Shown: positions 5,912 through 62,023 of the stretch, one piece after another
How the letters are laid out: the number at the start of each line of letters is the position of its first letter
How positions within the stretch are numbered: the first letter of the stretch is position 1
Source of the DNA: Rhodovulum sp. P5
Lineage (GTDB): Bacteria > Pseudomonadota > Alphaproteobacteria > Rhodobacterales > Rhodobacteraceae
Direction of reading: 5' to 3'
DNA: 64,000 nucleotides
NCBI RefSeq assembly: GCF_002079305.1
Contig: NZ_CP015039.1
Span: forward strand, 2,377,501-2,441,500
Translations under genes and position numbers: made by a program
The notes under the pieces: generated by a model
The model's database searches: none
What the model was told of the DNA's origin: nothing
What the model saw: the letters and a program-made list of their open reading frames with translations, nothing else

Positions 5912-6247
5912 GTGTGCTCTTTCAGCAGCCTGTTAGATGGATACCGTCGGTCCCGGAACCGTCGTCCGGGCACAGTGCCTATTCCTTTGAATTTGCGCAG
6001 GTCCGACGGCATGCGCCCGGTGCCGGAGGCGCTGATCGACGGGTTGCGCGCCCGGACGGACCCGGAGACGCATGTGCTGCTGTCCCCCGGTGACAAGGTG
6101 GAAATCACCGCCGGGGCCTTCACGGACTTCGTGGCCACGGTGGACGCGCTCGCCCCCGATCAGCGGGTGTGGGTGTTGCTTGACCTGATGGGACGGGCGA
6201 CGCGCGTCGCAGTTCCGCGGGACAATGTGATGGTCAGGCGCGCCTGA
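5912..6247 (+). pseudogene. 5'-truncated NusG/RfaH-family antiterminator (KOW-domain remnant)
   Basis: The last 78 or so residues look like the C-terminal half of a specialised NusG paralogue: a linker (PVPEALIDGLRARTDPE) leads into a KOW domain (LSPGDKVEITAGAF...VWVLLDLMGRATRVAVPRDN). The whole N-terminal NGN domain, which contacts RNA polymerase, is missing, and the preceding residues (from a GTG at 5912 to about 5990) do not resemble it. A TAG at 5900-5902 closes the frame just upstream. An internal ATG at 6011 could make a 78-residue KOW-only protein. RfaH-type proteins normally act on long surface or secretion operons, so the large secreted-protein gene next door may be relevant. A stand-alone KOW protein cannot be excluded. 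Confidence 0.55.
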
Positions 6248-6296
6248 CCATCAAACAGCGCGTTGTCCGGCTGGGTCGGTCTCAGGTCATCGGGGT

Positions 6297-7289
6297 TCAG
6301 AGGGCGCTGTCATAGCCGAACAGCGCCGCGGCGCCGCCGGTGTGCACGAAGACCACGCGTTCCCCCTTCGTGAAATGGCCCTTGCGGATCAGGTCGATCA
6401 GGCCCGCCGCGCCCTTGGCGGAATAGACCGGATCGAGAAGGATCGCCTCAAGCTCGGCGAACATGCGGATGGCCTCCAGCCCGCCCTCGGTCGGGATGCC
6501 GTAGCCTTCGCCGACATAGTCGGTGTTTGCCACCACGTCGGCCCGCTCAACGACGCCGGGGCATCCCAGTTTCTCGGCGGTCGCAACGGCGAGGTTGAAG
6601 ACGTTTTCCTCCTGCTTGGGTTTGGGCGCGCGCACGCCGATCCCAAGCAGGGGGATGCCGGCATTCATCGCCTTCAGCCCGGTGATCAGGCCGGCCTGCG
6701 TGCCAGCACTGCCGGTGGCATGGACGATGTGATCGACCCTCAGCCCCCGGTCGTTGAACTGCCCCAGCATTTCAAAGGCGCAATTGACATAGCCAAGCGC
6801 GCCCGTCGGGTTCGACCCCCCGCCCGGAATGGTATAGACACTCCGCCCCTCGGCACGGAAGCGGTCGGCGACGGCTTCCATCTCGGCGTTCATGTCCAGA
6901 CCGCCGGGGCGCTTTTCGGTCGTGGCACCGTGCAGGTGGTCGAGCAGCACGTTGCCGTTGTTGTTGTAGTTGGGATCGTTCGATCCGGTCCGGTCTTCCA
7001 GCAGGATATGGCAGGCCATCCCCAGCTTGGCCGCGAAGGCCGCGGTTTGCCGGGCATGGTTCGATTGGGTGGCGCCCTGCGTCATGACCATGTCGGCGCC
7101 CTGAAGCTCTGCCTCGGCCATCAGGAATTCAAGCTTGCGGGTCTTGTTGCCACCGGTGGACAGCCCCGTGCAGTCGTCGCGCTTGATCCAGATTTCCGGG
7201 CCGCCCAGTTCGGCGCTGAGCCGGTCGAGCCTTTCCAGCGGTGTGGGCAGATGGGCAAGGAAATGGCGGGGATAGCGGGCAAGATGCAT
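6297..7289 (-). CDS. cuyA: L-cysteate sulfo-lyase / D-cysteine desulfhydrase family PLP enzyme
   Basis: 330 residues, usual length for the ACC-deaminase/D-cysteine desulfhydrase family. The PLP lysine lies in [44 protein letters not shown] (phosphate loop) and [10 protein letters not shown] are all present. The sequence closely resembles what I recall of CuyA from Ruegeria and Roseovarius, which cleaves L-cysteate to pyruvate, ammonia and sulfite. D-cysteine desulfhydrase is the alternative, since motif reading alone cannot separate the substrates. The ATG at 7289 follows AGGGAGCC; a longer upstream frame overlaps the divergent regulator and is not used. It is transcribed divergently from a LysR gene, the usual arrangement for a regulated catabolic enzyme. 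Confidence 0.85.
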
Positions 7290-7364
7290 AAGAGGCTCCC
7301 TATGTTCATTAGTCCGGCGATTACCAACTCTCATCTGGCAAGTCGAACGGCTTTCTTGCATCTT

Positions 7365-7385
7365 AACTTGCAAAACGCGCAAGTT
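7365..7385. promoter_or_regulatory. Palindromic LysR-type operator between cuyA-like gene and regulator
   Basis: A perfect 7-bp inverted repeat, AACTTGC-N7-GCAAGTT, contains the T-N11-A core typical of LysR-family binding sites. It lies 14 bp before the regulator's ATG and about 76 bp upstream of the divergent lyase start, suited to autorepression of the regulator plus co-inducer-dependent activation of the lyase. A possible TTG start for the regulator lies inside the palindrome, another reason to prefer the ATG at 7399. Confidence 0.65.
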
Positions 7386-7398
7386 GTGGGGCCGGACC

Positions 7399-8340
7399 AT
7401 GCGATACGACTGGATCGAAGACATTCTTGCGGTGATCGAAACCGGTTCCTTTTCACGCGCGGCCGACCGGCGCAGCATCACACAATCCGCCTTCGCCCGC
7501 CGCATCGACACGATCGAGCAGCATCTTGGCGGGGCGCTGTTCGACCGCCGGCGCAAGCCCGTCGCGTTGTTTCCGCAGGCCCGCGCGCTTGAACCCGGTC
7601 TTCGCCAGTTACGTCAGATGCAGGCGTCGATCCTGCAGGAGGCGGCGCAGATCGCGCTGGGCGGCGGCCCTTCGGTTACGCTCGCCTGTCAGCATGCCAT
7701 CACGGCGACCTTTTCGCCCCACCTGGTTCGGGCCATTTCGGCGTCCGGGCTGGAACCGGTGCGCGTGCGCGCGGGCAACCGGGATGAGTGTCTTGTGATG
7801 TTGCTGTCGGGAGAGGCCGATCTGGTGGTAAGTTACGCCTTTCCCGGGCAGCCCACCGATATGAGTTCGGGATTTGTCGAACATACGATTGGCCGGGACA
7901 GCCTGCTTCCGGTGGGGGTGAGCGCGATGGCGCGCGATGCCGGCGGTACATTGAAGGTCATTGCCTATCCGTCAGACGTCTTTTTCGGCGCGCTGGTGCA
8001 GCGGGAGCTTTGGCCGTCCTTGCCGCCCGGAACCATCCTGAAGCACCGGGCCGAAACGGCCCTGACACTGGCGGCGTACCGATACGCGCTGGCCGGGATC
8101 GGCGTCGCATGGCTGCCGCGGTCGCTGGTACAGGACGATCTGGCTGCCGGGCGGCTGTCGCGGGTGCAGGATGCCGGGCTCGCGTGCGAACTGGAGGTCC
8201 GTCTGGTCCGCCTGGCCAACCCGATGCGCCCTGCGACGCTGTCAGTCTGGGCGATGGCGCTGGACGCGGAGATGGATCTAGAACGCTTCCCAGATCTTGC
8301 GCCCGATGGGGTCGAGCCTGTCGGGGGAACAGAAGAGTGA
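7399..8340 (+). CDS. LysR-family transcriptional regulator (divergent to the cuyA-like gene)
   Basis: 313 residues. The N-terminal winged helix-turn-helix is clear ([20 protein letters not shown], then [20 protein letters not shown]), followed by a LysR substrate-binding domain. ATG 7399 is used instead of the upstream TTG because it fits the family start and avoids the operator palindrome. The gene probably senses a substrate of the divergent lyase; this is inferred from position only. Its 3' end overlaps the next LysR gene tail-to-tail by 63 bp. Confidence 0.85.
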
Positions 8341-48757: not shown

Positions 48758-51484
48758 AACATGCTGGGCATCGGAACAGTCACGAAGAAGGTCTTTGGGA
48801 CCCGCAACGACCGCATGGTCAAGAAGGTCCGCCCGATCGTCAATCGGATCAACGAGCTGGAGCCGGACTTCGAGGGGCTGACCGACGAGGGGCTGAAGGA
48901 AAAGACCCAGGAGTTCATCCGCCGCCACCAGCAAGGCGAAAGCCTTGATGACCTGCTGCCCGAAGCCTTCGCCAACTGCCGCGAGGCCGCGCGCCGCGCG
49001 CTGGGCCTTCGGGCCTTCAACGTGCAGCTTGTGGGCGGCATCTTCCTGCATCGCGGCAACATCGCCGAGATGAAGACGGGCGAGGGCAAGACGCTGGTTG
49101 CAACCTTCCCCGCCTATCTGAACGCGCTGACGGGCAAGGCGGTGCATATCGTCACGGTCAACGACTATCTGGCCAAGCGCGACGCGGAATGGATGGGCAA
49201 GGTCTTTGCCGCGCTGGGCATGACCACCGGATGCGTCTACCCCTATCAGGGCGATGTGGAAAAGCGTGCCGCCTATGCCGCCGACATCACCTATGGCACC
49301 AATAACGAGTTCGGCTTCGACTATCTGCGCGACAACATGAAGTCGGAGCTGAAGGACATGGCCCAGCGGGGCCACTACTTTGCCATCGTAGACGAGGTCG
49401 ACTCGATCCTGATTGACGAGGCACGGACGCCGCTGATCATTTCCGGCCCCAGCCAGGACCGGTCGGAACTTTACAAGACCCTCGACGCGGTCGCCCCCGA
49501 ACTGGTCGAGGAGCACTACAAGCTCGACGAAAAGACGCGCAACGTGACCTTCACCGAAGAAGGCAACGAGTTCATGGAGAGCCGTCTGCATGAGCTTGGC
49601 ATCCTGCCCGAGGGGCAGTCGATGTATGACCCCGAAAGCACGACCATCGTCCACCACGCCCAGCAGGCCCTGCGTGCGCACAAGCTGTTCCTGAAGGACC
49701 GCGACTACATCGTCCGCGACGGCGAGGTGATGCTGATCGACGAGTTCACCGGCCGGATGATGCGCGGGCGCCGCCTGTCCGACGGTCTGCACCAGGCCAT
49801 CGAGGCAAAGGAAGGCGTGACGATCCAGCCCGAGAACGTGACGCTGGCATCGGTCACCTTCCAGAACTACTTCCGCCTTTACGACACGCTCGCCGGCATG
49901 ACCGGGACCGCCGCCACCGAGGCCGAGGAATTCATGCAGATCTACGGCCTTGGCGTGGTGGAGATCCCCACCAACATGCCGATCGCCCGGATCGACGAAC
50001 ACGACGCCGTCTATCGGACCGGCGACGAGAAGAATAACGCCATCGTTGAAACGATCCGCGAGGCGCACAAGCGCGGCCAGCCGCTTCTGGTCGGCACCAC
50101 CTCGATCGAGAAGTCCGAGATACTGTCGGAGCTTCTGAAGAAGGAAAAGATCGAGCACAACGTTCTGAACGCGCGCCACCACGAACAGGAAGCCAAGATC
50201 GTCGCAGAGGCCGGCCGCTATGGGGCTGTGACCATCGCCACCAACATGGCCGGGCGCGGCACCGACATCCAGCTTGGCGGCAATGTCGAGATGAAGGTGA
50301 TGGAGGCGCTGGACGCCGACCCGAACGCCCATCCCGACGAGGTGCGCCAGAAGATCGAGGCCGAACACGCCGACGAAAAGCGCCGCGTGCTTGCCGCCGG
50401 TGGCCTGTTCGTTCTTGGCACCGAACGCCACGAATCCCGCCGCATCGACAACCAGTTGCGCGGCCGTTCGGGCCGTCAGGGCGACCCGGGGCGGTCCGCC
50501 TTCTTCCTGTCGTTGCAGGACGACCTGATGCGCATCTTCGGCTCCGAACGTCTGGACAAGGTGCTCTCGACCCTCGGCATGCAGGAGGGCGAGGCGATCA
50601 TGCACCCCTGGGTGAACAAGTCGCTGGAAAAGGCCCAGGCCAAGGTCGAGGGGCGCAACTTCGACATCCGAAAGCAGTTGCTGAAATTCGACGACGTGAT
50701 GAACGAACAGCGGAAGGTCATCTTCTCCCAACGCCGTGAGATCATGGAGGCTGACGACCTCTCCGACATCGTGCAGGACATGCGCCAGCAGGTGATCGAC
50801 GATCTGGTCGAACAATACATGCCGCCGAAGTCCTATGCCGACCAGTGGGACACTCAGGGCCTGAACAACGCGCTGATCGAACAGCTGAACCTGGACGCTC
50901 CCGTCGCCGCATGGGCCGATGAGGAAGGCGTCGACGACGAGGATATTCGCGAGCGGCTTTACACCGCCGCGGACGAGGCGATGGCGGCGAAGGCGGCGCA
51001 GTTCGGCCCCGAGGCGATGCGCACCGTCGAAAAGCAGGTCCTGCTTCAGACCATCGACACGAAATGGCGCGAACATCTTCTGCGGTTGGAGCATCTGCGC
51101 TCCGTCATCGGGTTCCGCGGCTATGCCCAGCGTGATCCGCTGAACGAATACAAGACCGAGGCCTTCGCGCTGTTTGAGTCGCTGTTGAACGGTCTGCGGG
51201 AGGATGTCAGCCAGAAACTTGGCATGATCCGCCCGCTGACCGAGGATGAACAGGCAGAGATGATGCGCCAGATGGCCGAGCAGCAGGCGCGCCTTGATGC
51301 CGCGGCGGCGGCCGGTCGCGCGGCCCATCCCGGCCTGCCGGGCAGCCCGCCGGCAGCGCCCGAAGGGGCTGTCGAGGGATTCGATGAAACCCGCCCCGAA
51401 ACATGGGGAAACCCCGGCCGAAACGATCCGTGCCCCTGCGGTTCCGGCAAGAAGTTCAAGCATTGCCACGGCCAACTGGCCTGA
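48758..51484 (+). CDS. secA: Preprotein translocase ATPase SecA
   Basis: 908 residues. Motor of the Sec pathway. Walker [12 protein letters not shown] near 108, [15 protein letters not shown] near 211, the second helicase motif [14 protein letters not shown], and a C-terminal zinc knuckle ([16 protein letters not shown]) that binds SecB. A Gln/Ala-rich linker precedes the knuckle. Confidence 0.97.
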
Positions 51485-51494
51485 CCGCCTGATC

Positions 51495-51522
51495 CGGGGT
51501 CCCGTCGCAACACGGGGCCCCG
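51495..51522 (+). terminator. GC hairpin after secA
   Basis: CGGGGTCCCGT pairs with ACGGGGCCCCG (one G-T pair) around a 6-nt loop, 10 bp past the secA stop. There is no T-run, so termination strength is uncertain. Confidence 0.45.
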
Positions 51523-51576
51523 ACGCGGGTTCAAGGGCTGCCCTGTGGCGCCCGTCGCACCAGCGCAGATAACGGC

Positions 51577-51605
51577 TTGACGCCCCCGAACTAGCCACCT
51601 ATTCA
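51577..51605 (+). promoter_or_regulatory. Promoter of tRNA-Cys
   Basis: TTGACG and TATTCA are 17 bp apart, ending 12 bp before the mature tRNA 5' end. The -35 matches consensus at five of six positions. Confidence 0.6.
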
Positions 51606-51617
51606 GAAGACCGCTCT

Positions 51618-51691
51618 GGCGAGTTGGCGGAGTGGTGACGCAGCGGATTGCAAATCCGTGTACACCGGTTCGATTCCGGTACTCGCCTCCA
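51618..51691 (+). tRNA. tRNA-Cys (anticodon GCA), integration target of the island
   Basis: 74 nt with encoded CCA. The acceptor stem GGCGAGT/ACTCGCC, discriminator T, T-loop GTTCGATTC and anticodon loop TTGCAAA are all correct. From position 51648 onward (3' part of the anticodon arm) the sequence is repeated at the far end of the island, so integration left the gene intact. Confidence 0.96.
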
Positions 51692-51705
51692 TTTACTTTC
51701 AATGG
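51648..51705 (+). repeat. attL, 58-bp direct repeat
   Basis: Starts in the anticodon loop of tRNA-Cys and runs 14 bp past the CCA end. Identical to 60851-60908. The adjacent bases differ (A against C before; C against A after), fixing the limits. Confidence 0.9.
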
Positions 51706-51934
51706 CTTAGCGCCCTATTGGGCCGTCAAGAGCACCTCCGTCTAGGAATGTCTAAACAATCGTCTAAACATTCTGTTTTTGTTCCGTTCTATACAGAAGG
51801 CGGAACGGCCCGGATGATCAGACGCATATGAGGCGCGTGATCGCGCAAGATAGACGAGCTCAGGCGCTAGTCGGCCTGACCCGAGGAAGCTCATGGCTAG
51901 CGATGTGAAGGCGTTCCGATGTAACGCAGCCTGC
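51706..51934. other. Left-end non-coding segment of the island
   Basis: About 230 bp between attL and the integrase stop. It contains an inverted pair GTTCCG...CGGAAC near 51780-51805 and a stretch AGAAGGCGGAACGGCCCGGA. A diverged copy of the whole segment lies just outside attR at 60909-61140. Confidence 0.65.
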
Positions 51935-52945
51935 CTAGCGCGGGCTGCTTTGTTCAGTTCGTTTTTGCTGGGCCTGCAAGGCGCGGACCTTCTGACGCAC
52001 CTTCTTGGTGTAGTGCAGCACCATTGCCGGACTCTGGCCCGTTACGGCCGCGACCAGATCGTCCCCGCAGCCCGCTTCTACGAGCTCACAGGCCGCGTTG
52101 TAGCGCCAGCTGTGAATGTCATAGTCCAGCGCGCCAATGGTGTCCCTGACCTTCCTGACGGCCTGTGAGGCCCCGCGATATGACCAACGGTTCGTTCCCC
52201 GTTCGTTGGTCAGGATGAAGACCGAAAGCCGCGTGGAGGCATCGAGTGCGGCTTGCAACTCTGGCAAGATCGGAACCCAGAGTTCCTTGCCGGTCTTGTT
52301 CTGGCGAATGACGACTCCGCCATCTTGAATGTCGGACCAGCGCATTTCCAGCACATCGCCAATTCGCTGCCCGGTGCCAACACAGAGCTCCATGACGAGG
52401 CGCTCACGCGTACCCAGCGGGCAGCTGGTGCGGTAGGCTTCGAGCAACTCTCTGGGCCAAGGTTCGCGCTCCTTGCGCGCCGTCTTGAGCTCCTGGACAC
52501 CCTTGGCAGGGTTGGTGTCTCGCCAGCCCAAATCAACGCAATGCTCCATGAGGACCCGTAGGACGCGCAGTGAGTAGTTTGCGAAGTAGGCCTTGTCGGC
52601 ATTCGCATCCCGAAGCCGGATGACGTCCTTGCGCATCATGTTCGCAGGATTGGCCTCGCCCATGATCGAGCAGAAGAAGTCGAGGTACTTGTCGTAATCC
52701 AGTGCCGTGCGCGGTTTGAGCTTCCGGTATCTTGGTGACCCACGGTAGTCTTTGACGAGGGCAGCGAAATTCCGAGTGATGACCCGCTTGGGCGGTGCTT
52801 CACCCGCAAGAATATCTGCATACTCCTGCCAAAACTCGGGAGTTCCAAATTCGTTTTGCAGCTTCCGCGACGGCCACCCCCGGCGCTGGAAGTACAGACC
52901 GTTCCGCTGGCGGTAAACGTGTTTTGGAAGCTCACGTTTTGCCAT
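51935..52945 (-). CDS. Tyrosine recombinase/phage-type integrase
   Basis: 336 residues. The C-terminal catalytic domain shows Arg I in GTGQRIGDVLEMRW, Lys in QNKTGKELWVPI, HxxR as IHSWRYNAA, and the nucleophilic Tyr in MVLHYTKK. The N-terminal half holds a SAM-like core-binding domain (YDKYLDFFCSIMGEANPANM). It is read toward tRNA-Cys, the normal orientation for site-specific integration there. It overlaps the preceding small gene by 14 bp. Confidence 0.92.
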   Translation of the reverse strand: MAKRELPKHVYRQRNGLYFQRRGWPSRKLQNEFGTPEFWQEYADILAGEAPPKRVITRNFAALVKDYRGSPRYRKLKPRTALDYDKYLDFFCSIMGEANPANMMRKDVIRLRDANADKAYFANYSLRVLRVLMEHCVDLGWRDTNPAKGVQELKTARKEREPWPRELLEAYRTSCPLGTRERLVMELCVGTGQRIGDVLEMRWSDIQDGGVVIRQNKTGKELWVPILPELQAALDASTRLSVFILTNERGTNRWSYRGASQAVRKVRDTIGALDYDIHSWRYNAACELVEAGCGDDLVAAVTGQSPAMVLHYTKKVRQKVRALQAQQKRTEQSSPR

Positions 52946-53141
52946 GGCGCATATCGATTCTGTCGAATTCGTCAGCCATCGTGTCTGAGGTTAGCACAAT
53001 CTCGATCCTACGTCCCTCCACTGCGATCCGGCTTACCGACTTGCCCGCACCCTCCAGCGCATTGAGCAGATCAAGCGCCTTCTTTTCCAGACTGCTTCCT
53101 GCCACGTTCCTCTCGCTCCCTTCCGCGTTGGTTTTGCGCAT
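52932..53141 (-). CDS. Small protein coupled to the integrase
   Basis: 69 residues. Helical N-terminus (SSLEKKALDLLNALEGAGK) and a strand-rich end (SRIAVEGRRIEIVL) finishing with DEFDRIDMRHGKT. It overlaps the integrase start by 14 bp, so it is almost certainly coexpressed. Proteins of this type seem to precede alphaproteobacterial integrases; a role in recombination direction (Xis-like) is only a guess. Confidence 0.65.
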   Translation of the reverse strand: MRKTNAEGSERNVAGSSLEKKALDLLNALEGAGKSVSRIAVEGRRIEIVLTSDTMADEFDRIDMRHGKT

Positions 53142-53236
53142 CCTGTTGGCTGAATGAGGAAGCTCTCCTCATGCAAAGCACTGATAGGTCCTCGATAGGC
53201 AGCGAGCTCGGAACGCAGCAACAACAACTTTGCGGA

Positions 53237-53254
53237 GGTGTCACTAAGTGCAAC
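53237..53254 (+). repeat. 18-bp direct repeat, copy 1
   Basis: GGTGTCACTAAGTGCAAC, repeated exactly at 53442-53459. Lies upstream of the integrase unit next to the inverted repeat at 53264-53278. Could be arm-type integrase sites or operators. Confidence 0.8.
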
Positions 53255-53441
53255 AGCGCTTTTGTAACAATTCGTTACCCGATAGCGCCGTTCCGGCGCC
53301 CGAATTGTGCGCCTGATCCCAGTTGTGGGACGCGGCACACACAAACAAACGCGTGCCGCTGCCACTACTATTTTCCGATGCATACGTGACCCGATCCCGC
53401 CTGATGGTGCACCAAATCCCCAAGTGACCCTAGTCGGGATC

Positions 53442-53459
53442 GGTGTCACTAAGTGCAAC
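53442..53459 (+). repeat. 18-bp direct repeat, copy 2
   Basis: Exact copy of 53237-53254, 205 bp downstream in the same orientation. Confidence 0.8.
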
Positions 53460-53488
53460 CACTGACAAGAGGTGTGTGTATGTGGGCC

Positions 53489-53532
53489 GCCTCCCGCCCC
53501 CTCCGATCCTTGCGTCTCCGGGGGTGGGAGGC
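53489..53532. other. Long-stem hairpin in the RT upstream region
   Basis: GCCTCCCGCCCC pairs with GGGGTGGGAGGC (11 of 12 positions) around a 20-nt loop. A stem this long in otherwise non-coding DNA suggests a structured RNA or a terminator between the integrase unit and the RT. Confidence 0.55.
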
Positions 53533-53675
53533 TCGCGTCAGCCCTCACATCGTGTGCCTGCTTGCCATGGAAGGCGGTCTGCAGGGCCAGCAGCGCAGCG
53601 GTGATTAGAGAGCTTCGAACTAGCTTTGTGCTTCGCGGAATAGCGATCTCGAATTTGTCTCGCGTGAGAGGGCTA

Positions 53676-53706
53676 GGCCGACGCAAAAACGACTGCGTCG
53701 AAGGCC
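53676..53706. other. Second hairpin in the RT upstream region
   Basis: CGACGCA and TGCGTCG pair perfectly around an 8-nt loop, extended by GGCC on both sides with a small bulge. It lies just before the promoter-like element. Confidence 0.5.
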
Positions 53707-53717
53707 CCTCAGTTCGC

Positions 53718-53745
53718 TTTCAAACCCTCGCCCTTAAAGTATAAC
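53718..53745 (+). promoter_or_regulatory. Possible promoter for the RT transcript
   Basis: TTTCAA and TATAAC with a 16-bp spacer; the -10 matches consensus at five of six positions, the -35 is weak. Transcription from it would give a leader of about 370 nt before the RT ATG. Confidence 0.35.
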
Positions 53746-54125
53746 CCATGGAATCGGCACACGTTTCCTTCAGGCGCCCGGCTGAGCCAGGTGACATAGC
53801 GGGTAGGCGGAGGCCATACTCCAGACATTCGCTGTCATCGGCGCTCAGGTTTGCCCGGCGGGGCTTTCCGGCCGTTCGCCGCCCGCGCTCGATTTGCGCT
53901 AGGGCTGTGAGAAACGAGCAAGGTAGGGGCAGAGACCTCCCGTACGCCACTGTCCGCTCGAATGGCAGCGATACGCACGTGGCCGTTTATCAGGTGACTT
54001 GATCTGGGCCTCGCATTTACAATCTCGACGCGCCAGAGTGCAACAAAGTCTTCACGATCAAGTCCCCCTCTTGCCAGCGAGTTCACGCGGTCCGATAACT
54101 AAGCGAACAACGTGCGAGGCCTGTT

Positions 54126-55949
54126 TTGCAATCTCCGAAGTTTCAGTTTCTAAAAGATGATATCAGGGATGTTTTCGATATCAGCCTGTTGAAGGATGAG
54201 TGGAAAAGGCGAACGAAGCCGCAAATAAGGAAGCAACTCGTATTTGATGCAATTGAGTATAGAGACATTGACCAAGATATATCGCACCTACTTCAACGTG
54301 TTCGAAGAGAGGTCAGCGAAGGGAGCTATGTCGTCCGAAGGCCGAAGAGATACCTGACTGAAAAATCTCGCGGCCTTTGCCGTCAAATGACCTTGATACA
54401 CCCAAGAGACCTGCTCGTTCTGGAAAGGCTTTCTAGGTCGGTCTACTTCGAATTGAAACTCAAAGCTCCGAGCAAGTCAGCATTCTTCGAGCCAGACGAC
54501 GGAAAATTTGCGAAGGGTTTCAGGCAAAGCGACTTTGAGTACGGGTCCTTTGCAAGCTGGAAGAAGTTTCAGAAAAGCATCTTTGGCTTTGCAAAGGAGA
54601 ATGACTACATAGTCATTACTGATGTGGCGAACTTCTACGACTTCATCAACTTTCAACATTTAAGAAACATCGTCTCTTCGCTGGCGGACATCCGGGAGTC
54701 TATTCTCGACCTCCTAATTCATGTATTGAACCGCCTAACATGGACGCCAGATTTCATGCCTTTGACACAAGTGGGTATGCCTCAGATTGAGACATCAGCC
54801 ACACGTGTTTTGGCGAACGCTATGCTCTATGAGGTGGACAAGGTTTGCGAGCACTCAGCGGTCTCTAACTACGCTAGATTCATGGATGACATAGATGTTG
54901 GCGTGGCTTGTGTTGAGAAAGCCAAAGCCATTGTTCGGGATATTGACCTGACCCTGCAATCACGCCAACTCAGGCTCAACTCTTCAAAAACTCGAATATT
55001 ATCACGGCAAGAGGCCTTCACGCATTTCTGCATATCTGAAAATATGACTCTGTCGCGGATAGAAGCGTTTACCGAGAAGGGGCGATTCCTAACTCTTGCC
55101 AAGGCAATCTTGACATCGAAATATGAGACCTGGCTTCACCGGTCCCCCGATGGCGGGCCGGGCGAGAATTCCCGTTTCATTCGGGGCAATGGGCCGAAAA
55201 TCCACAAGCGTGTATTGAGTTTGATCTACGAGGTGGGAGGCGCTGTCAGTGATGAGGACCTTCTCTGGCAGGTCGAGTACAATCCATCTATGCGACCGAC
55301 AGCGCTGCGATACCTCTCAAGGACACGTAGAGGAAACACAGTCCTCAAGAAATTGATCACAATGGTGAAAAGTGGCGTGTTCGTCGACGATGCTGCATAT
55401 GTAGATGTCGCTGGCTTCATGCTTCACGCTAAGTTTCGAAAGACCCACGCATGCACGTTGCGAGCGGAGGAGTTTTGTAAGCTCGCTGCTTCGACGAGCG
55501 ATATTGGCTTGCACAGTGCAATATTTGTGTCAGCGCGCTTTCTCGCTCGCTCAAAAATACAAAGACTTCTGGATAACAACGTCGAACGAATTTCAGATGA
55601 CTTCTGGCTCAGCCGAGCCGCGGCGGGCCTGACATCTCTATTCATTGGGGAATCCGAATGGGGGAAATATCTCGACTTCCTTCGCAGTTTAAACTCGCCA
55701 GATGCCGAAGACGTGTACGAGTATCTGCTGTCGATAAGTAGCTCGACGAGCTTTACTCAATCCCTCAAAGCCTACATCAAAGCTCCAAATCACACCTTTC
55801 CTCAGGCACTTTTCTTTCCCAAGGTCCTGATTCTACTGGCGGTGGCGAAAAACGTCAGCAGCGCAGCATTGGCTCCTAACCTCCATGTGGATCACCCCGC
55901 GCTCAAGAAGGACCCCTCAAGTTCACCAGTAAAACGCGTAAGTGATTGA
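54126..55949 (+). CDS. Stand-alone reverse transcriptase (Abi/UG/DRT-like), 3' end altered by IS insertion
   Basis: 607 residues. RT motifs in order: RGLCRQMTLIHPRDLLVLER (motif 1-2 region), DVANFYDFINF (motif A, Asp near 166), GMPQIETSATRVLANAMLYE (motif B, near 217), YARFMDDIDVG (motif C, FMDD in place of YxDD, Asp 254-255) and LRLNSSKTRIL (motif D/E). The remaining 300 or so residues appear all-helical and could be a HEAT-like repeat domain as in class 1 defence RTs. There is no maturase, integrase or retron-type feature. The gene is clearly AT-richer than its host. TTG at the stated start; a long non-coding leader precedes it. An IS copy begins at 55916, so the last ten residues are IS-encoded; the ancestral protein was 604 residues ending YYAQMGF. 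Probably still functional. Confidence 0.82.
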   Translation: MQSPKFQFLKDDIRDVFDISLLKDEWKRRTKPQIRKQLVFDAIEYRDIDQDISHLLQRVRREVSEGSYVVRRPKRYLTEKSRGLCRQMTLIHPRDLLVLERLSRSVYFELKLKAPSKSAFFEPDDGKFAKGFRQSDFEYGSFASWKKFQKSIFGFAKENDYIVITDVANFYDFINFQHLRNIVSSLADIRESILDLLIHVLNRLTWTPDFMPLTQVGMPQIETSATRVLANAMLYEVDKVCEHSAVSNYARFMDDIDVGVACVEKAKAIVRDIDLTLQSRQLRLNSSKTRILSRQEAFTHFCISENMTLSRIEAFTEKGRFLTLAKAILTSKYETWLHRSPDGGPGENSRFIRGNGPKIHKRVLSLIYEVGGAVSDEDLLWQVEYNPSMRPTALRYLSRTRRGNTVLKKLITMVKSGVFVDDAAYVDVAGFMLHAKFRKTHACTLRAEEFCKLAASTSDIGLHSAIFVSARFLARSKIQRLLDNNVERISDDFWLSRAAAGLTSLFIGESEWGKYLDFLRSLNSPDAEDVYEYLLSISSSTSFTQSLKAYIKAPNHTFPQALFFPKVLILLAVAKNVSSAALAPNLHVDHPALKKDPSSSPVKRVSD

Positions 55950-57811
55950 TATCGTTATGGCGAGATTGGCCAAAATGTAACTACGCGAGGGTGATCAGGC
56001 GGGTTTTGGCAGGTTCAGGGTGTCGAAGAGGTCCAGTTGTTCGGGGGTCGGGGTGGTGAGGCCGTCGAGCTTTCGGTCGGCGATCCGGGCTTCGTGGCGG
56101 TGGATGCGCGCGAGCATGTCGAGGGCGGTTCGTGGGCTGGCGTCATGTCCTTTTGCCTTCAGCCGCATGCGCATGACGCGGTAGAGGACGAGGGCGAGAA
56201 AGCAGATCAGCGCGTGGGCGCGGATGCGGTCGGGCAGCCGATGGTGGACGGGGGCGATCTCGATATCGGATTTCAGGACGCGGAAGCCGCGTTCGATATC
56301 GGCCAGCGACTTGTAGCGGGTCACGGTTGCGGTCGGCGTCAGGTCGGGGGCATTGGTCAGCAGGGCGAGCTTGCCGTCGAAGAGTTCGGCTCGGGCGACG
56401 GCGTCTTCGTCGATGCTGTAGCTGAACCGGTCGGCCTGCAGGTCTGCCTTGAGGAACCGGGTCAGTTCGGCCTCGGCCACGGCGCGCGTGAAGCGGCTAT
56501 AGGCGCCGCGGTCGGAGGCGCGGCGGCCCCGCGCCGTCTGGCCGTCGTCTTGCGCATCGAGCTTGGCGACCATCTTTTCGGCCTGGGCTTCAAGTTCGGC
56601 GATGCGGGCGCGACGTCGTTCGGATTGGTCGGCGGCTCGAACGGGATCATGGGCGACGATCAGGCGATGGCCGGCAAAATTGCTTTCCGCCAGGCCGCCT
56701 TCGTCGAAGGCAAGGCCCCGAAAGGTCTCGACCAGATCGGCATAGCGACGGGCGGGGACGGCGAGGATGAACTCCAGCTTGCGGTCGTCCTGATCGGCCA
56801 GGGCGGTCAGTTCGTCGATGTTTTCAAGGCTGAGCAGGCCACGGTCGGCGACCAGGATGACACGCTGCACGGGAAACCGCTGCAACACCGTCTGCAGCAT
56901 GCCCTGCAGGGTTTTCGTCTCCCCGACATTGCCGGGGTGGACCGTGTGCATGAGCGGCAGGCCGTCGGCGGTTTGCACGACGCCGAGCACGAATTGCCGG
57001 GCGATGCCACCGGTTTCCTTGTTCATGCCATAGGCGCGGAGGTCGTCGTCAACCTCTCCGTCGCCATGGATGCGCACCGTGGTCAGGTCGTAGAAGACCA
57101 CGGCCAGGTCCCGATCGACCAGCGGACGGATTTGTCTGGCCAGTTCCATCTCGACCCGCTCGGCATGGTCCATCAGCGCATCCATGGCGCGGAGCAGATG
57201 TTGATGCGTGACGGTGTCCGGCATCGCCGGCATGGCGACCGTTTCCAGCCAGCGCAGGCAGCCCAGCTTGCTTGTGGGGTCGCACAACCGATTGAACACC
57301 ATGGCGCGGACCAGCGCCTCCACGTCGACTTTCCGCTTGCCGGAACGCAGCGCACGGCCGAGGGCATGATCGAAACCAAGGTCCTTCCACAACTCGTGCA
57401 GGGCAAAGACGTCGCCATAGCTGCGCGCCGCCTCGTAGGTGATCTCGGCCTTCTCGGGCTCGACCCGACCCGCGGCGCGACTGAGCCCCCGGATCAGCGC
57501 ATCGAGCTGGCCATCCTTCATCCCGTCCACGCGCCCCAGATTGGCCACGACGCGCAGCCGGGGCTTGCCCGCCTCGTTACGGAAGGACTCGACAATCTGC
57601 AGATAGCGACGCCCGCCGCTCTCGGTGATGCGCGTGAACATGGCATGCAGGATATCGCACGTTTGGGCGCATTCATAGGGTCTTAAACATCATAACGTGT
57701 AACTACACGACTTCGGCCGAACTGCCCACCTCGCGCGCCTTAAGCTATTGAAATCCCATACCTGCGCTGAACGCGCTCACGCAGATTCCCCCGGATTTTG
57801 TCGAAGTTCGG
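55916..57811 (-). mobile_element. IS1634-family insertion sequence, copy 1 (1896 bp)
   Basis: Flanked by a perfect 6-bp target duplication GGACCC (55910-55915 and 57812-57817). The ends show imperfect inverted repeats (CTCAAGTTCACC on the left against CCGAACTTCGAC reading in from the right). It differs from copy 2 at three positions only. It lies in the 3' end of the RT gene. Confidence 0.9.
55995..57641 (-). CDS. IS1634-family DDE transposase, copy 1
   Basis: 548 residues, intact. The DDE residues are probably in VVFYDLTTVRIHGD, VILVADRGLLSLEN and SLADIERGFRVLKSDIEI. The N-terminal MFTRITESGGRRYLQIVES pattern and the overall length fit IS1634 relatives of the IS4 superfamily. Identical in sequence to the copy-2 protein, so both are likely active. 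Confidence 0.9.
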   Translation of the reverse strand: MFTRITESGGRRYLQIVESFRNEAGKPRLRVVANLGRVDGMKDGQLDALIRGLSRAAGRVEPEKAEITYEAARSYGDVFALHELWKDLGFDHALGRALRSGKRKVDVEALVRAMVFNRLCDPTSKLGCLRWLETVAMPAMPDTVTHQHLLRAMDALMDHAERVEMELARQIRPLVDRDLAVVFYDLTTVRIHGDGEVDDDLRAYGMNKETGGIARQFVLGVVQTADGLPLMHTVHPGNVGETKTLQGMLQTVLQRFPVQRVILVADRGLLSLENIDELTALADQDDRKLEFILAVPARRYADLVETFRGLAFDEGGLAESNFAGHRLIVAHDPVRAADQSERRRARIAELEAQAEKMVAKLDAQDDGQTARGRRASDRGAYSRFTRAVAEAELTRFLKADLQADRFSYSIDEDAVARAELFDGKLALLTNAPDLTPTATVTRYKSLADIERGFRVLKSDIEIAPVHHRLPDRIRAHALICFLALVLYRVMRMRLKAKGHDASPRTALDMLARIHRHEARIADRKLDGLTTPTPEQLDLFDTLNLPKPA

Positions 57812-57945
57812 GGACCCGTACTACGCTCAAATGGGTTTCTGAAACCGGGTAAGCTTCAGGTGCTCTGTGCCGCAGCAGTGGGACGTTCGCGAGAGGCTGA
57901 AAAGGGCTGAGCGACAGCTTTTCTCTGTGCGATTCACGCATGCCG
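57812..57945 (+). other. Original 3' end of the RT gene plus downstream DNA
   Basis: Joining 55915 to 57818 restores an open frame that adds YYAQMGF and ends at TGA 57840-57842. The remaining 100 bp before IS copy 2 have no gene; a copy of the target hexamer ATGCCG closes the segment. Confidence 0.8.
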
Positions 57946-59841
57946 CTCAAGTTCACCAGTAAAACGCGTAAGTGATTGATATCGTTATGGCGAGATTGGC
58001 CAAAATGTAACTACGCGAGGGTGATCAGGCGGGTTTTGGCAGGTTCAGGGTGTCGAAGAGGTCCAGTTGTTCGGGGGTCGGGGTGGTGAGGCCGTCGAGC
58101 TTTCGGTCGGCGATCCGGGCTTCGTGGCGGTGGATGCGCGCGAGCATGTCGAGGGCGGTTCGTGGGCTGGCGTCATGTCCTTTTGCCTTCAGCCGCATGC
58201 GCATGACGCGGTAGAGGACGAGGGCGAGAAAGCAGATCAGCGCGTGGGCGCGGATGCGGTCGGGCAGCCGATGGTGGACGGGGGCGATCTCGATATCGGA
58301 TTTCAGGACGCGGAAGCCGCGTTCGATATCGGCCAGCGACTTGTAGCGGGTCACGGTTGCGGTCGGCGTCAGGTCGGGGGCATTGGTCAGCAGGGCGAGC
58401 TTGCCGTCGAAGAGTTCGGCTCGGGCGACGGCGTCTTCGTCGATGCTGTAGCTGAACCGGTCGGCCTGCAGGTCTGCCTTGAGGAACCGGGTCAGTTCGG
58501 CCTCGGCCACGGCGCGCGTGAAGCGGCTATAGGCGCCGCGGTCGGAGGCGCGGCGGCCCCGCGCCGTCTGGCCGTCGTCTTGCGCATCGAGCTTGGCGAC
58601 CATCTTTTCGGCCTGGGCTTCAAGTTCGGCGATGCGGGCGCGACGTCGTTCGGATTGGTCGGCGGCTCGAACGGGATCATGGGCGACGATCAGGCGATGG
58701 CCGGCAAAATTGCTTTCCGCCAGGCCGCCTTCGTCGAAGGCAAGGCCCCGAAAGGTCTCGACCAGATCGGCATAGCGACGGGCGGGGACGGCGAGGATGA
58801 ACTCCAGCTTGCGGTCGTCCTGATCGGCCAGGGCGGTCAGTTCGTCGATGTTTTCAAGGCTGAGCAGGCCACGGTCGGCGACCAGGATGACACGCTGCAC
58901 GGGAAACCGCTGCAACACCGTCTGCAGCATGCCCTGCAGGGTTTTCGTCTCCCCGACATTGCCGGGGTGGACCGTGTGCATGAGCGGCAGGCCGTCGGCG
59001 GTTTGCACGACGCCGAGCACGAATTGCCGGGCGATGCCACCGGTTTCCTTGTTCATGCCATAGGCGCGGAGGTCGTCGTCAACCTCTCCGTCGCCATGGA
59101 TGCGCACCGTGGTCAGGTCGTAGAAGACCACGGCCAGGTCCCGATCGACCAGCGGACGGATTTGTCTGGCCAGTTCCATCTCGACCCGCTCGGCATGGTC
59201 CATCAGCGCATCCATGGCGCGGAGCAGATGTTGATGCGTGACGGTGTCCGGCATCGCGGGCATCGCGACCGTTTCCAGCCAGCGCAGGCAGCCAAGCTTG
59301 CTTGTGGGGTCGCACAACCGATTGAACACCATGGCGCGGACCAGCGCCTCCACGTCGACTTTCCGCTTGCCGGAACGCAGCGCACGGCCGAGGGCATGAT
59401 CGAAACCAAGGTCCTTCCACAACTCGTGCAGGGCAAAGACGTCGCCATAGCTGCGCGCCGCCTCGTAGGTGATCTCGGCCTTCTCGGGCTCGACCCGACC
59501 CGCGGCGCGACTGAGCCCCCGGATCAGCGCATCGAGCTGGCCATCCTTCATCCCGTCCACGCGCCCCAGATTGGCCACGACGCGCAGCCGGGGCTTGCCC
59601 GCCTCGTTACGGAAGGACTCGACAATCTGCAGATAGCGACGCCCGCCGCTCTCGGTGATGCGCGTGAACATGGCATGCAGGATATCGCACGTTTGGGCGC
59701 ATTCATAGGGTCTTAAACATCATAACGTGTAACTACACGACTTCGGCCGAACTGCCCACCTCGCGCGCCTTAAGCTATTGAAATCCCATACCTGCGCTGA
59801 ACGCGCTCACGCAGATTCCCCCGGATTTTGTCGAAGTTCGG
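57946..59841 (-). mobile_element. IS1634-family insertion sequence, copy 2 (1896 bp)
   Basis: Perfect 6-bp target duplication ATGCCG at 57940-57945 and 59842-59847, different from that of copy 1, so it inserted independently in the same orientation only 134 bp away. Confidence 0.9.
58025..59671 (-). CDS. IS1634-family DDE transposase, copy 2
   Basis: 548 residues, protein identical to copy 1. The three DNA differences between the copies (57228/59258, 57234/59264, 57264/59294) are all silent. Confidence 0.9.
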   Translation of the reverse strand: MFTRITESGGRRYLQIVESFRNEAGKPRLRVVANLGRVDGMKDGQLDALIRGLSRAAGRVEPEKAEITYEAARSYGDVFALHELWKDLGFDHALGRALRSGKRKVDVEALVRAMVFNRLCDPTSKLGCLRWLETVAMPAMPDTVTHQHLLRAMDALMDHAERVEMELARQIRPLVDRDLAVVFYDLTTVRIHGDGEVDDDLRAYGMNKETGGIARQFVLGVVQTADGLPLMHTVHPGNVGETKTLQGMLQTVLQRFPVQRVILVADRGLLSLENIDELTALADQDDRKLEFILAVPARRYADLVETFRGLAFDEGGLAESNFAGHRLIVAHDPVRAADQSERRRARIAELEAQAEKMVAKLDAQDDGQTARGRRASDRGAYSRFTRAVAEAELTRFLKADLQADRFSYSIDEDAVARAELFDGKLALLTNAPDLTPTATVTRYKSLADIERGFRVLKSDIEIAPVHHRLPDRIRAHALICFLALVLYRVMRMRLKAKGHDASPRTALDMLARIHRHEARIADRKLDGLTTPTPEQLDLFDTLNLPKPA

Positions 59842-59969
59842 ATGCCGGCTCTGGGCCGGCTTTGCCAGCGCACTCTCGCTGCACCCGTGAAGTGCCGCGC
59901 CTGCACGGTGGGTATTTCGGCTCGGGGCCGTCGTTCGCTGCGGTGTGAAGGAAGGGCTGAGGACGCCTT
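59842..59969. other. Short intergenic segment between IS copy 2 and the SNase gene
   Basis: About 128 bp. GC-rich with short palindromes (GCCGGCTCTGGGCCGGC near 59845). It is the 3' side of the minus-strand nuclease gene and may hold its terminator. Confidence 0.4.
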
Positions 59970-60518
59970 TCACTTGTGAAATACGCTCATATTTCCGCGC
60001 TGTCTTGCGGCGGCTTTCCAGTGCTTCTTTCGCACGCCATCTGGCTCTAGATGAGCATACTTCCCGCCAGAGAACTTTGGCCAGTCGAGGGCCAGCCCCC
60101 GCGTGACCATTTCGGCGCTAAGGTCACGACCGTCGGGCAAAAAACAGGTTGCGACGACGCGATCATAAGAGATTTCCGGTTCAATCTCCGCCGTTATGAC
60201 CCTTCCCTTGCAGAGCTGGACCAGCTCCCACTTGGCCTTCTTGCCCCAAGGGTGATCAAGTTCCGGCGCATCAATGCCCGCAAGCCTCAGTCTGACTTTT
60301 CCGATCTGTATCGTGTCGCCGTCGATGACATAGCATTTACCGGTCAGCGTGGACGGGCAGGAGGCGGGCGCTGATGACTGGTCGGCGACACAGGAAACCG
60401 ACACCGACCGCTGATCTGACGCAGGTGTTGGGACGCTTGGCGCAGGGCGTGGGCGCGCCTGCCGTTTTCGCTGCTTCGCAGCTGCCTTGAACAACGTGCG
60501 AATTACCAGTTTCAGCAA
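59970..60518 (-). CDS. SNase-family (thermonuclease-like) nuclease
   Basis: 182 residues. The C-terminal two thirds form a staphylococcal-nuclease fold: CYVIDGDTIQIGKVRLRLAG with IDAPE, then KGRVITAEIEPEISYDRVVATCF and AEMVTRGLALDW. The first 60 residues are basic, Pro/Ser-rich and membrane-adjacent (LKLVIRTLFKAAAKQRKRQ). No ATG fits; TTG 60518 is preceded by GGAG at the right distance. Such nucleases are common on mobile elements; whether it works with the RT is unknown. Confidence 0.8.
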   Translation of the reverse strand: MLKLVIRTLFKAAAKQRKRQARPRPAPSVPTPASDQRSVSVSCVADQSSAPASCPSTLTGKCYVIDGDTIQIGKVRLRLAGIDAPELDHPWGKKAKWELVQLCKGRVITAEIEPEISYDRVVATCFLPDGRDLSAEMVTRGLALDWPKFSGGKYAHLEPDGVRKKHWKAAARQRGNMSVFHK

Positions 60519-60850
60519 AGCAGGCTCCGTTTGCTTTGAGAGGAATATCCCTCAGCGTAGCGGCCAAAGTTCAATCGAGAAAGTGTTAAGAACTGGACGC
60601 TTGGTCTCACCCTCCCAATCCGGATGTCGGCCATTGATCGACCGTGTTTCGAAACGCGCATCGCGCTGCGAATTTGGAATCTTGAAGCGCAATAGCCGCA
60701 GCACTGTGTCTGGAGCGGATGGCCTGAAGATTGCGGCTATTTCGAACGATCAAGCGAGTTCCGCGCCCTCTAAACTTTCACCCTATGTTCTTCACAATAC
60801 TAGCCGCTGTCTACGCATTTAATCCTTTTAATTCAGTCTCATACCTAGTC
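60519..60850. other. Right-end segment of the island before attR
   Basis: About 330 bp, no supported gene. It becomes AT-rich toward attR (60770-60850). It probably contains the promoter of the nuclease gene and, by analogy, right-end integrase binding sites. Confidence 0.45.
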
Positions 60851-60908
60851 TTGCAAATCCGTGTACACCGGTTCGATTCCGGTACTCGCCTCCATTTACT
60901 TTCAATGG
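60851..60908 (+). repeat. attR, 58-bp direct repeat with tRNA-Cys 3' fragment
   Basis: Identical to attL. Holds only the 3' 41 nt of tRNA-Cys plus 17 bp or less of flank, so it is not a functional tRNA. Confidence 0.9.
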
Positions 60909-61447
60909 AATAATGGTCCGAAAAGTCGTCAACTGCGCGACTAACTAGGGCTGTCCAAACAATCGGCCAACCATTCTGATTGTTCCGTTCTTCAAAGAAG
61001 GCGGAACGGCCCGGATGATCCGAGGCAGATGCGGTGCGTGGTCGGGCAGGATAGACGGGCTCATGGCGGCCTGACCGGCGGATACTCATCACTCGCCATG
61101 CAAAGGCGTTCCCGCGTCTCGCAGTTTGCCTACCTCACGCCCTCATAAAGGACGCGCGACGTTTGCGGATGGCTGTCTCACTCTTGGCGCAGAACGGATT
61201 GGCCCAATGCGGGTATCGGCTGCCGTCTCGGTCCGCGATCCGAAATGGACGGTTCGAGGCCTCAGTGCCGGGCTATGCACAAGGGGGCTCCTCCCTTTCG
61301 TCCGATGTCGGAAGAATGACCGTGCCGGCGTGATTTTGCGCCGGGATGGTGTCTTTGCCGCCGCTTCTGCGGTGCCATCACGTCTTTGCAGCGGACGCGC
61401 CCATTTCGCATTTGGCAGCCCTTCCTTGCCCGTTCTATCCTCTGCCC
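60909..61447. other. Relic of a related island's left end, then non-coding DNA
   Basis: The first 230 bp (60909-61140) align with the island's left end at 51706-51940, with patches of identity such as AAGGCGGAACGGCCCGGATG and gaps elsewhere. The integrase itself is absent. The remaining 300 bp, up to the sigma factor gene, hold no convincing gene. Confidence 0.65.
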
Positions 61448-62023
61448 ATGCGCGCATCTCAACGTCAGGATTCCAACGAAGAACGGCCCGCTGATGCTGT
61501 CCTTCTGGCCCGCGTCGCCGAGGGCGACATGGCGGCGATGAAGGCGCTCTATATGGCCCATGCCGACGCGGTGACCCGGTTCGTGCGGTCCCGCGTGCGT
61601 GACGAGGCCGAGGTCGCCGATATCGTGCAGGACACGATGCTGACCGTCTGGCATGCCGCGGCCGGGTTCCAGGGGCGCTCCACCGTTCTGTCATGGATAT
61701 TGTCGATGGCGCGGAACAAGACCGTGGATCACATCCGCAAGCAAGCCCGCGTGACCCTTGGTGCCCCGGATGAGGAGATCCCCGACAGCGACCCCGACCC
61801 TGAAGCGGCACTGGGTGCGGTGCAGGATGCCGCCCGCCTGCGCGCCTGCGTGGAGGCCCTGCCGGAGCGGCAGCGGGCCGTCGTGCACCTCGCCTATTAC
61901 GAAGACATGACCCTGGGTGAGATCGCCGGCATTGAATCCGTCCCCGAGGGCACCGTCAAAAGCCGGATCTACCACGCCAAGCAATTGCTGCTCCGCTGCC
62001 TGTCGCGGGATGGCCAGACATGA
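61448..62023 (+). CDS. ECF RNA polymerase sigma factor
   Basis: 191 residues. Sigma region 2 (LYMAHADAVTRFVRSRV, DIVQDTMLTVWHAA, STVLSWILSMARNKTVDHIRK) and region 4 (LPERQRAVVHLAYYEDMTLG, EGTVKSRIYHAKQLLL) are clear. It overlaps the following gene's possible upstream start. With the next two genes it makes a three-gene operon. Confidence 0.88.
   Translation: MRASQRQDSNEERPADAVLLARVAEGDMAAMKALYMAHADAVTRFVRSRVRDEAEVADIVQDTMLTVWHAAAGFQGRSTVLSWILSMARNKTVDHIRKQARVTLGAPDEEIPDSDPDPEAALGAVQDAARLRACVEALPERQRAVVHLAYYEDMTLGEIAGIESVPEGTVKSRIYHAKQLLLRCLSRDGQT

Follow-up and report, generated by a model that had tools for sequence, protein, structure and literature searches.

A 607-residue reverse transcriptase (RT) gene stands alone on a mobile island in the 64,000-nucleotide stretch of Rhodovulum sp. 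P5 DNA analysed here (the window), and it raises the question of whether such an enzyme defends its host against phages and, if so, whether it works alone or with an RNA encoded beside it. The reading that we prefer, and to which we give an even chance, is that the locus is a tRNA-Cys island with a stand-alone, single-gene UG13a defence system, free of non-coding RNA (ncRNA), which would act by protein-primed, template-independent DNA synthesis and abortive infection. That the UG13a RT is a defence RT of some kind is likely.

The RT belongs to the UG13a group

The RT frame was compared with the PADLOC, NCBIfam and Pfam profiles, and the following features were assigned to the gene:

54126..55949, + strand: UG13a reverse transcriptase, 607 residues as read; PADLOC RT_UG13a, E 2.2e-200
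54116..54119, + strand: likely ribosome-binding site GAGG, 6 nt before the TTG start, judged from sequence
54071..54099, + strand: putative RT promoter, TTGCCA-17 nt-GATAAC, both hexamers identical in seven aligned loci

The frame begins with TTG at a codon where most relatives also start (TTG, GTG or ATG), and it contains DVANFYDF, GMPQ and FMDD, which bears out the motifs A, B and C reported in an earlier note on this DNA. The RT_UG13a profile covered residues 1-600, and the next-best PADLOC models were UG21 (4e-35), then UG19, UG13b and Drt8. The window RT is thus a new copy of an already named group, and the undescribed subgroup that had been suggested is rejected because PADLOC already holds the model RT_UG13a. 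NCBIfam gave matches far below the cut-offs only, including TIGR04416 for group II intron RTs and maturases (57 bits, cut-off 300) and the model for retron St85 (32.6 bits, cut-off 235); Pfam RVT_1 scored 28.0 against 29.6. Since the Rfam scan also contained no intron and no retron msr-msd RNA match, both RT types were rejected, in agreement with the earlier note. No template/variable repeat pair of the diversity-generating type was present among the 20 of 23 direct-repeat families listed for 51500-61200.

Genome contigs were scanned and yielded 59 loci with RT relatives (numbered with the prefix L below). For 42 of these, L009-L050, E was at most 3e-46, and all ten members submitted to PADLOC, mostly divergent ones, matched RT_UG13a. 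Within the window's class, UG13a occurred in one of 385 genomes, namely the window's own; among 61 relatives of that genome any RT match was seen in two, the second being weak (E 2e-4), and no UG13a relatives were found in phage records. The window and 29 of the 46 relative frames read were aligned in 30 rows. Left out were L003 (the same as L009), the near-duplicates L011 and L036, L040 (N-terminus not recovered), the distant L042, L043, L047 and L050, frames of 86-509 residues (L005, L017, L030, L044-L046, L048 and L049), and L020, an open frame of 616 residues with an unrelated end that was judged frame-shifted on sight; L004, another copy of the L015 gene, lay outside the 46. The catalytic residues D166, D254 and D255 were invariant in all 30 rows, so the catalytic aspartates are kept in homologues. 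The window RT shares with the group its full-length profile match, the catalytic motifs, the N-terminal x-S-P-K/R-F and the helical C-terminal half; it differs in lacking the C-terminal [DEQ]-x-[YFH]-[YF], owing to the insertion of an insertion sequence (IS).

UG13 was reportedly not among the groups assayed in a 2022 survey of UG/Abi RTs. The main texts of the RT papers searched contained no experiment on any UG13 member and no mention of UG13, and the name did not occur in the myRT paper (PMC8934634). We place the window RT in a defence-RT group that is known but apparently untested, its carrier being a tRNA island of ordinary kind.

The RT gene lies on an integrase island at tRNA-Cys

The RT sits on a 9.2-kb island at tRNA-Cys, as had been proposed, which carries an integrase and is bounded by a 58-nt perfect repeat:

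51618..51691, + strand: tRNA-Cys (gca), integration target; ARAGORN, Rfam tRNA 65 bits
51648..51705, + strand: left attachment repeat, 58 nt, including the tRNA-Cys 3' end; 100% direct repeat with 60851-60908
51935..52945, - strand: island tyrosine integrase, beside the left repeat; Pfam Phage_integrase, E 1e-15
52932..53141, - strand: 69-residue ORF adjoining the integrase; no Pfam match
59970..60518, - strand: SNase-domain protein, 182 residues, cargo of the island; Pfam SNase, E 2e-9
60851..60908, + strand: right attachment repeat, perfect copy of 51648-51705

Besides these genes, the island holds the RT and two IS copies. The AT-rich composition remarked on earlier was evident, with 46-52% GC in the RT; of the nineteen other intervals of 500 bp across 50500-61999, 18 had 56-67% and the remaining one (60500-60999) had 49%. 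Beyond the 58-nt repeat, 51724-51937 and 60927-61132 were 72-86% similar for about 200 nt, which looks as if the island holds a diverged copy of the chromosomal flank. Upstream of the RT, an 18-nt perfect direct repeat (53237-53254 and 53442-53459, 205 nt apart) had no other occurrence in the genome and perhaps represents integrase arm sites or an operator.

An insertion sequence replaced the C-terminal tail of the window RT

Comparison of the IS copies, with ends and lengths taken from it by hand, resolved the region behind the RT as follows:

55916..57811, + strand: IS copy 1, 1896 bp, in RT codon 597; Pfam DDE_Tnp_1 and copy comparison
55995-57641, - strand: DDE transposase of IS copy 1
55910..55915, + strand: target-site duplicate GGACCC of IS copy 1, right copy at 57812-57817
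57818..57842, + strand: the RT's displaced last codons and native stop
57946..59841, + strand: IS copy 2, a separate insertion, with the duplicate ATGCCG at 57940-57945 and 59842-59847

The two IS copies differ at 3 positions. Relatives at 86-88% identity have 604 residues and end in ...KKDPYY(A/S)QMGF, whereas the window RT ends in ...KKDPSSSPVKRVSD, its residues after about 597 being IS-derived. The length of 604-607 residues given earlier was apt: the closest intact relatives have 604, and the window RT reads 607 because the IS replaces its end. The interval 53142..57842 previously assigned to the system does include the RT end and native stop, but 55916-57811 of it is the insertion sequence.

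The genome carries at least 19 full-length IS copies at 100% identity (rounded), the window's two included, and at least 4 further copies at 92-94%; these are lower bounds, since 40 of the 166 candidates found with a 1641-nt IS query were scored. The IS was probably active recently in this genome, and the insertion into the RT looks recent because the element is near-identical to at least 18 other genomic copies.

The motif [DEQ]-x-[YFH]-[YF] was present in 29 of the 30 aligned rows, 3-12 residues before the C-terminus; the window, where the IS entered codon 597, was the exception, a loss on which the earlier note was silent. This tail motif is a feature described here rather than a published criterion, and its absence does not bar UG13a membership. 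Over the 29 rows the aromatic pair was YY in 21, FF in 5 and HF in 3. A universal C-terminal priming tyrosine was rejected, since a tail tyrosine cannot prime in all UG13a members when the pair is Phe or His-Phe in 8 of 29. Across all 46 relative frames the motif was found in 34; L042, L043 and L047 read DPIY, DPLY and DPLY, with the second aromatic only, and it was absent from eight short or broken frames and from L020. Two full-length frames therefore lack it, the window RT and L020. The L020 frame (6001-7851) is open over 616 residues with an end unlike that of all relatives; the motif was sought in other nearby frames there and was not found, and the end may reflect a frame shift or a further tail change. 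Given L020, the tail may be dispensable, unless L020 is itself decayed.

A rival reading, plausible though somewhat short of even, sees in the window copy the decayed remnant of a UG13a system that no longer functions. The IS removed a tail motif kept in the 29 other aligned members, AbiK is reported to lose activity on deletion of 46 C-terminal residues (PMC9508834), and DNA is reportedly primed from C-terminal residues in DRT9 (two tyrosines; PMC12483538), DRT10 (a serine; PMC12632851) and DRT3b (a tyrosine; PMC13174585), so that the insertion is a natural lesion in the enzyme part used for priming in several other DRTs. However, the IS replaced the last residues alone and left the catalytic core, start, promoter-like block and helical domain untouched; L020 likewise lacks the motif, and the event looks recent. 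The window RT may be impaired through tail loss.

No conserved upstream RNA was detected at UG13a loci

The earlier note described a long structured leader and suggested that an upstream ncRNA might be required. The stretch concerned is:

53142..54125, + strand: 984-nt non-coding stretch between the end of the small ORF (53141) and the RT start

Its length is as described, and it folds slightly better than shuffled sequence (z -2.3, 0 of 20 shuffles as good), but only its last 60 to about 175 nt have counterparts at related loci. In the seven close loci aligned, the DNA common to all starts about 60 nt before the RT start; sharing reaches further upstream in a subset, with 174-181 nt at 71-73% in the window, L010 and L015, and about 117 nt in L012. 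The invariant TTGCCA-17 nt-GATAAC followed by GAGG reads as a promoter with a short 5' UTR; a stricter consensus promoter scan did not list this block. Among 60 host relatives, the 984 nt gave only two short matches (36 and 23 nt). At the other end of the gene, the DNA shared between L009, L012 and the L010/L011/L015 group stops at the RT stop codon, L010, L011 and L015 having kilobases in common on both sides of the RT. The window aligns with its relatives up to the IS and again past it, at 70-72% over 97 nt, reaching about 66 nt beyond the relatives' stop.

All 406 pairs of 29 UG13a members were then compared by blastn over 1000 nt upstream and downstream of the RT. Flanks were shorter upstream of L022 (566 nt) and downstream of the window (101), L025 (540) and L037 (379); the downstream flank of L026 (55 nt) was too short to search, and its pairs were counted as misses. 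Matches by protein identity were:

90% or more: upstream 3 of 3 pairs; downstream 2
80-89%: upstream 11 of 16; downstream 1
70-79%: upstream 4 of 12; downstream 1
60-69%: upstream 0 of 27; downstream 0
50-59%: upstream 0 of 11; downstream 0
40-49%: upstream 0 of 46; downstream 0
30-39%: upstream 3 of 288; downstream 4
20-29%: upstream 0 of 3; downstream 0

The four upstream matches at 70-79% lay at least 115 nt from the RT, where the L027/L031/L038 and L023/L024/L026 sets share host genes. None of the 84 pairs at 40-69% identity showed flanking similarity within 1000 nt on either side, and five pairs at 83-89% identity had no similarity in 600 nt upstream.

DRT2, also a stand-alone RT with non-coding DNA upstream, served as the positive control, with the same blastn settings and 900 rather than 600 nt; for L071 the upstream limit was the start indicated by homology, which lies within the annotated N-terminus. 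Four DRT2 relatives formed six pairs. In three of these a shared block was found upstream (193, 193 and 338 nt), which probably represents the DRT2 ncRNA; the pairs with 193-nt blocks were about 50% identical. All three pairs that included L073, which is 32% identical to L069, were negative. No DRT2 relatives were found in viral contigs. DRT10 was unusable as an ncRNA control: it occurred in one of 299 genomes, its search found no relatives in viruses, and group II intron RTs made up most of the 30 rows listed for plasmids.

These results bear on the view that UG13a is an ncRNA-templated system like DRT2, DRT9 and DRT10, its RNA being short, fast-evolving or distant and so missed by comparison. 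In favour of this are the folding of the 984 nt, the upstream sequence shared by the window, L010, L015 and L012, the reported poor conservation of the DRT10 template loops (PMC12632851), and the failure of the control with L073, which means that a diverged RNA can escape the test. The empty 40-69% classes, the five close pairs with nothing in common upstream and the success of DRT2 pairs at about 50% identity nevertheless make it improbable. Little room is left for an RNA at several loci, where the upstream gap is 88-174 nt: the RT starts 112 nt (L027) and 98 nt (L038) behind uvrA, 174 nt behind rpoD in L029, 112 nt behind an integrase in L013 and, in the truncated L005, 88 nt behind a terminase. 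A structured upstream ncRNA was therefore rejected where the DRT2 control is positive, and a locus-encoded ncRNA for UG13a is unlikely, judging from these alignments. The leader idea thus fails a controlled test; what is informative at this locus is the tail motif, together with the fact that this genome has lost it. For cloning, one gene with about 100-200 nt of upstream DNA is indicated, taken from an intact relative and not from this genome.

The nearest structural matches of the predicted fold are single-gene and Abi-type RTs

The intact Roseivivax lentus protein (L010) was modelled with a 28-row alignment (pLDDT 86.4, pTM 0.87). Residues 294-600 were almost wholly helical and the tail was confident, in line with the long helical C-terminal half read earlier from the window. 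The class 1 UG/Abi (alphaRep) RTs, to which UG13a may belong, are marked by an RT fused to a helical domain of HEAT-like repeats and by protein-primed DNA synthesis without a template. The first seven Foldseek matches in the PDB were DRT4/UG15, DRT6 and Abi-P2; the top five had modest TM-scores of 0.41-0.46, normalised by query length. Among ranks 8-20, AbiK and AbiA were mixed with DRT9 and group II intron RTs. Placement among the template-independent enzymes is tentative because of these modest scores and the interleaved DRT9 and group II intron RTs. DRT4, with its relative DRT6, provides the best structural match and is reported to be a single-gene, template-independent system (PMC13213688); the single-gene organisation is shared with UG13a, whereas identity to UG13a in the Foldseek alignments was only 12-15%.

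AbiK, Abi-P2 and AbiA combine an RT lobe with a helical C-terminal domain and use no template RNA, as is proposed for UG13a. AbiK and Abi-P2 are described as protein-primed from a tyrosine in the alpha2-alpha3 loop (PMC9508834); UG13a, in contrast, has no invariant tyrosine in the apparently matching loop, matched by helix order only. DRT9, DRT10 and DRT3b resemble UG13a in their conserved C-terminal tail, from whose Tyr or Ser they are reported to prime, and the Phe or His-Phe pairs of UG13a set it apart; DRT9 and DRT10 also differ in reportedly requiring an encoded ncRNA, and DRT2 in the conserved upstream block of its relatives.

Taken with the flank comparison, the model points to the single-gene reading given at the outset. 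A UG13a RT would need neither a partner gene nor an encoded ncRNA, and would make DNA without a nucleic-acid template, starting on a hydroxyl residue of its own. The nascent DNA would pass along the cleft that separates the RT lobe from the helical lobe, and phage infection would convert DNA production into an abortive response. An active IS having replaced the protein end with its D-x-aromatic-aromatic tail, the window copy would perhaps be impaired in this activity. As an alternative to template independence, the enzyme could copy its own mRNA or an RNA encoded in trans.

When the window and the partial L016 were set aside, all 28 rows had the same residue at S3, Y68, Y139, Y171 and T289, and this comparison points to residues worth testing. 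Y68 and Y171 presumably fall in RT motifs, and Y139 borders 123-140, the sole loop of the L010 model with pLDDT below 50. It is improbable that UG13a represents a new single-gene DRT mechanism in which, for want of an encoded template RNA and of a tail tyrosine common to all members, DNA is primed from a conserved residue outside the tail (N-terminal Ser3, or Tyr139 bordering the disordered loop of the fingers) and the aromatic tail is a gate or anchor at the cleft; were it true, the window RT would be a natural tail-loss mutant. Its probability is lowered by the distant member L050, where both Ser3 and Tyr139 are missing, and by L020, which has no tail.

No fixed partner gene was found beside UG13a RTs

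ORFs of at least 70 residues within 4.5 kb of the RT at 35 loci were called by a simple method and clustered. No neighbour cluster occurred at more than 5 of the 35 loci, consistent with the earlier description of a UG/Abi-type RT on a mobile island without a conserved protein partner. A fixed partner gene was rejected: the clusters present at three or more loci comprised UvrA-type ATPases, recombinases or integrases, a gene that we take from its sequence to be LepA-like, and genes of the near-identical trio of L010, L011 and L015. Recombinases or integrases were confirmed at L006, L009, L010, L013, L016, L019, L032 and the window, with tyrosine and serine types alternating between hosts; the integrase-like ORF of L012 matched DUF6538 only. 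PADLOC matched four of ten neighbours at six loci, with defence-type genes at two of these: SIR2 and HerA upstream of the RT in L035 (L036 has the same ORF clusters) and a type IIG/DrmMI-like gene beside the RT in L037. The matches at L022 were to a UvrB-type helicase.

That the RT serves integration or retrotransposition of a mobile element rather than defence is very unlikely: its carriage on integrase islands and beside a phage terminase would fit, but no intron, retron or conserved neighbour was found, DNA shared between L009, L012 and the L010/L011/L015 group stops at the RT stop codon, the recombinase type changes from host to host, and some members adjoin defence genes.

Individual loci showed further arrangements. 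In L035 (1292-5955), SIR2, HerA and a 354-residue ORF lie directly upstream of the UG13a RT; the ORF, possibly an additional component, had no match in PADLOC or Pfam at the thresholds applied. L005 (2872-5638) has a UG13a gene truncated to 287 residues, which immediately follows the gene for the large subunit of a phage terminase. In L027, L038 and L031, three alphaproteobacterial genomes that are related to each other, the UG13a gene neighbours the 3' end of uvrA, and L031 has about 0.7 kb more between uvrA and the UG13a gene than L027 and L038.
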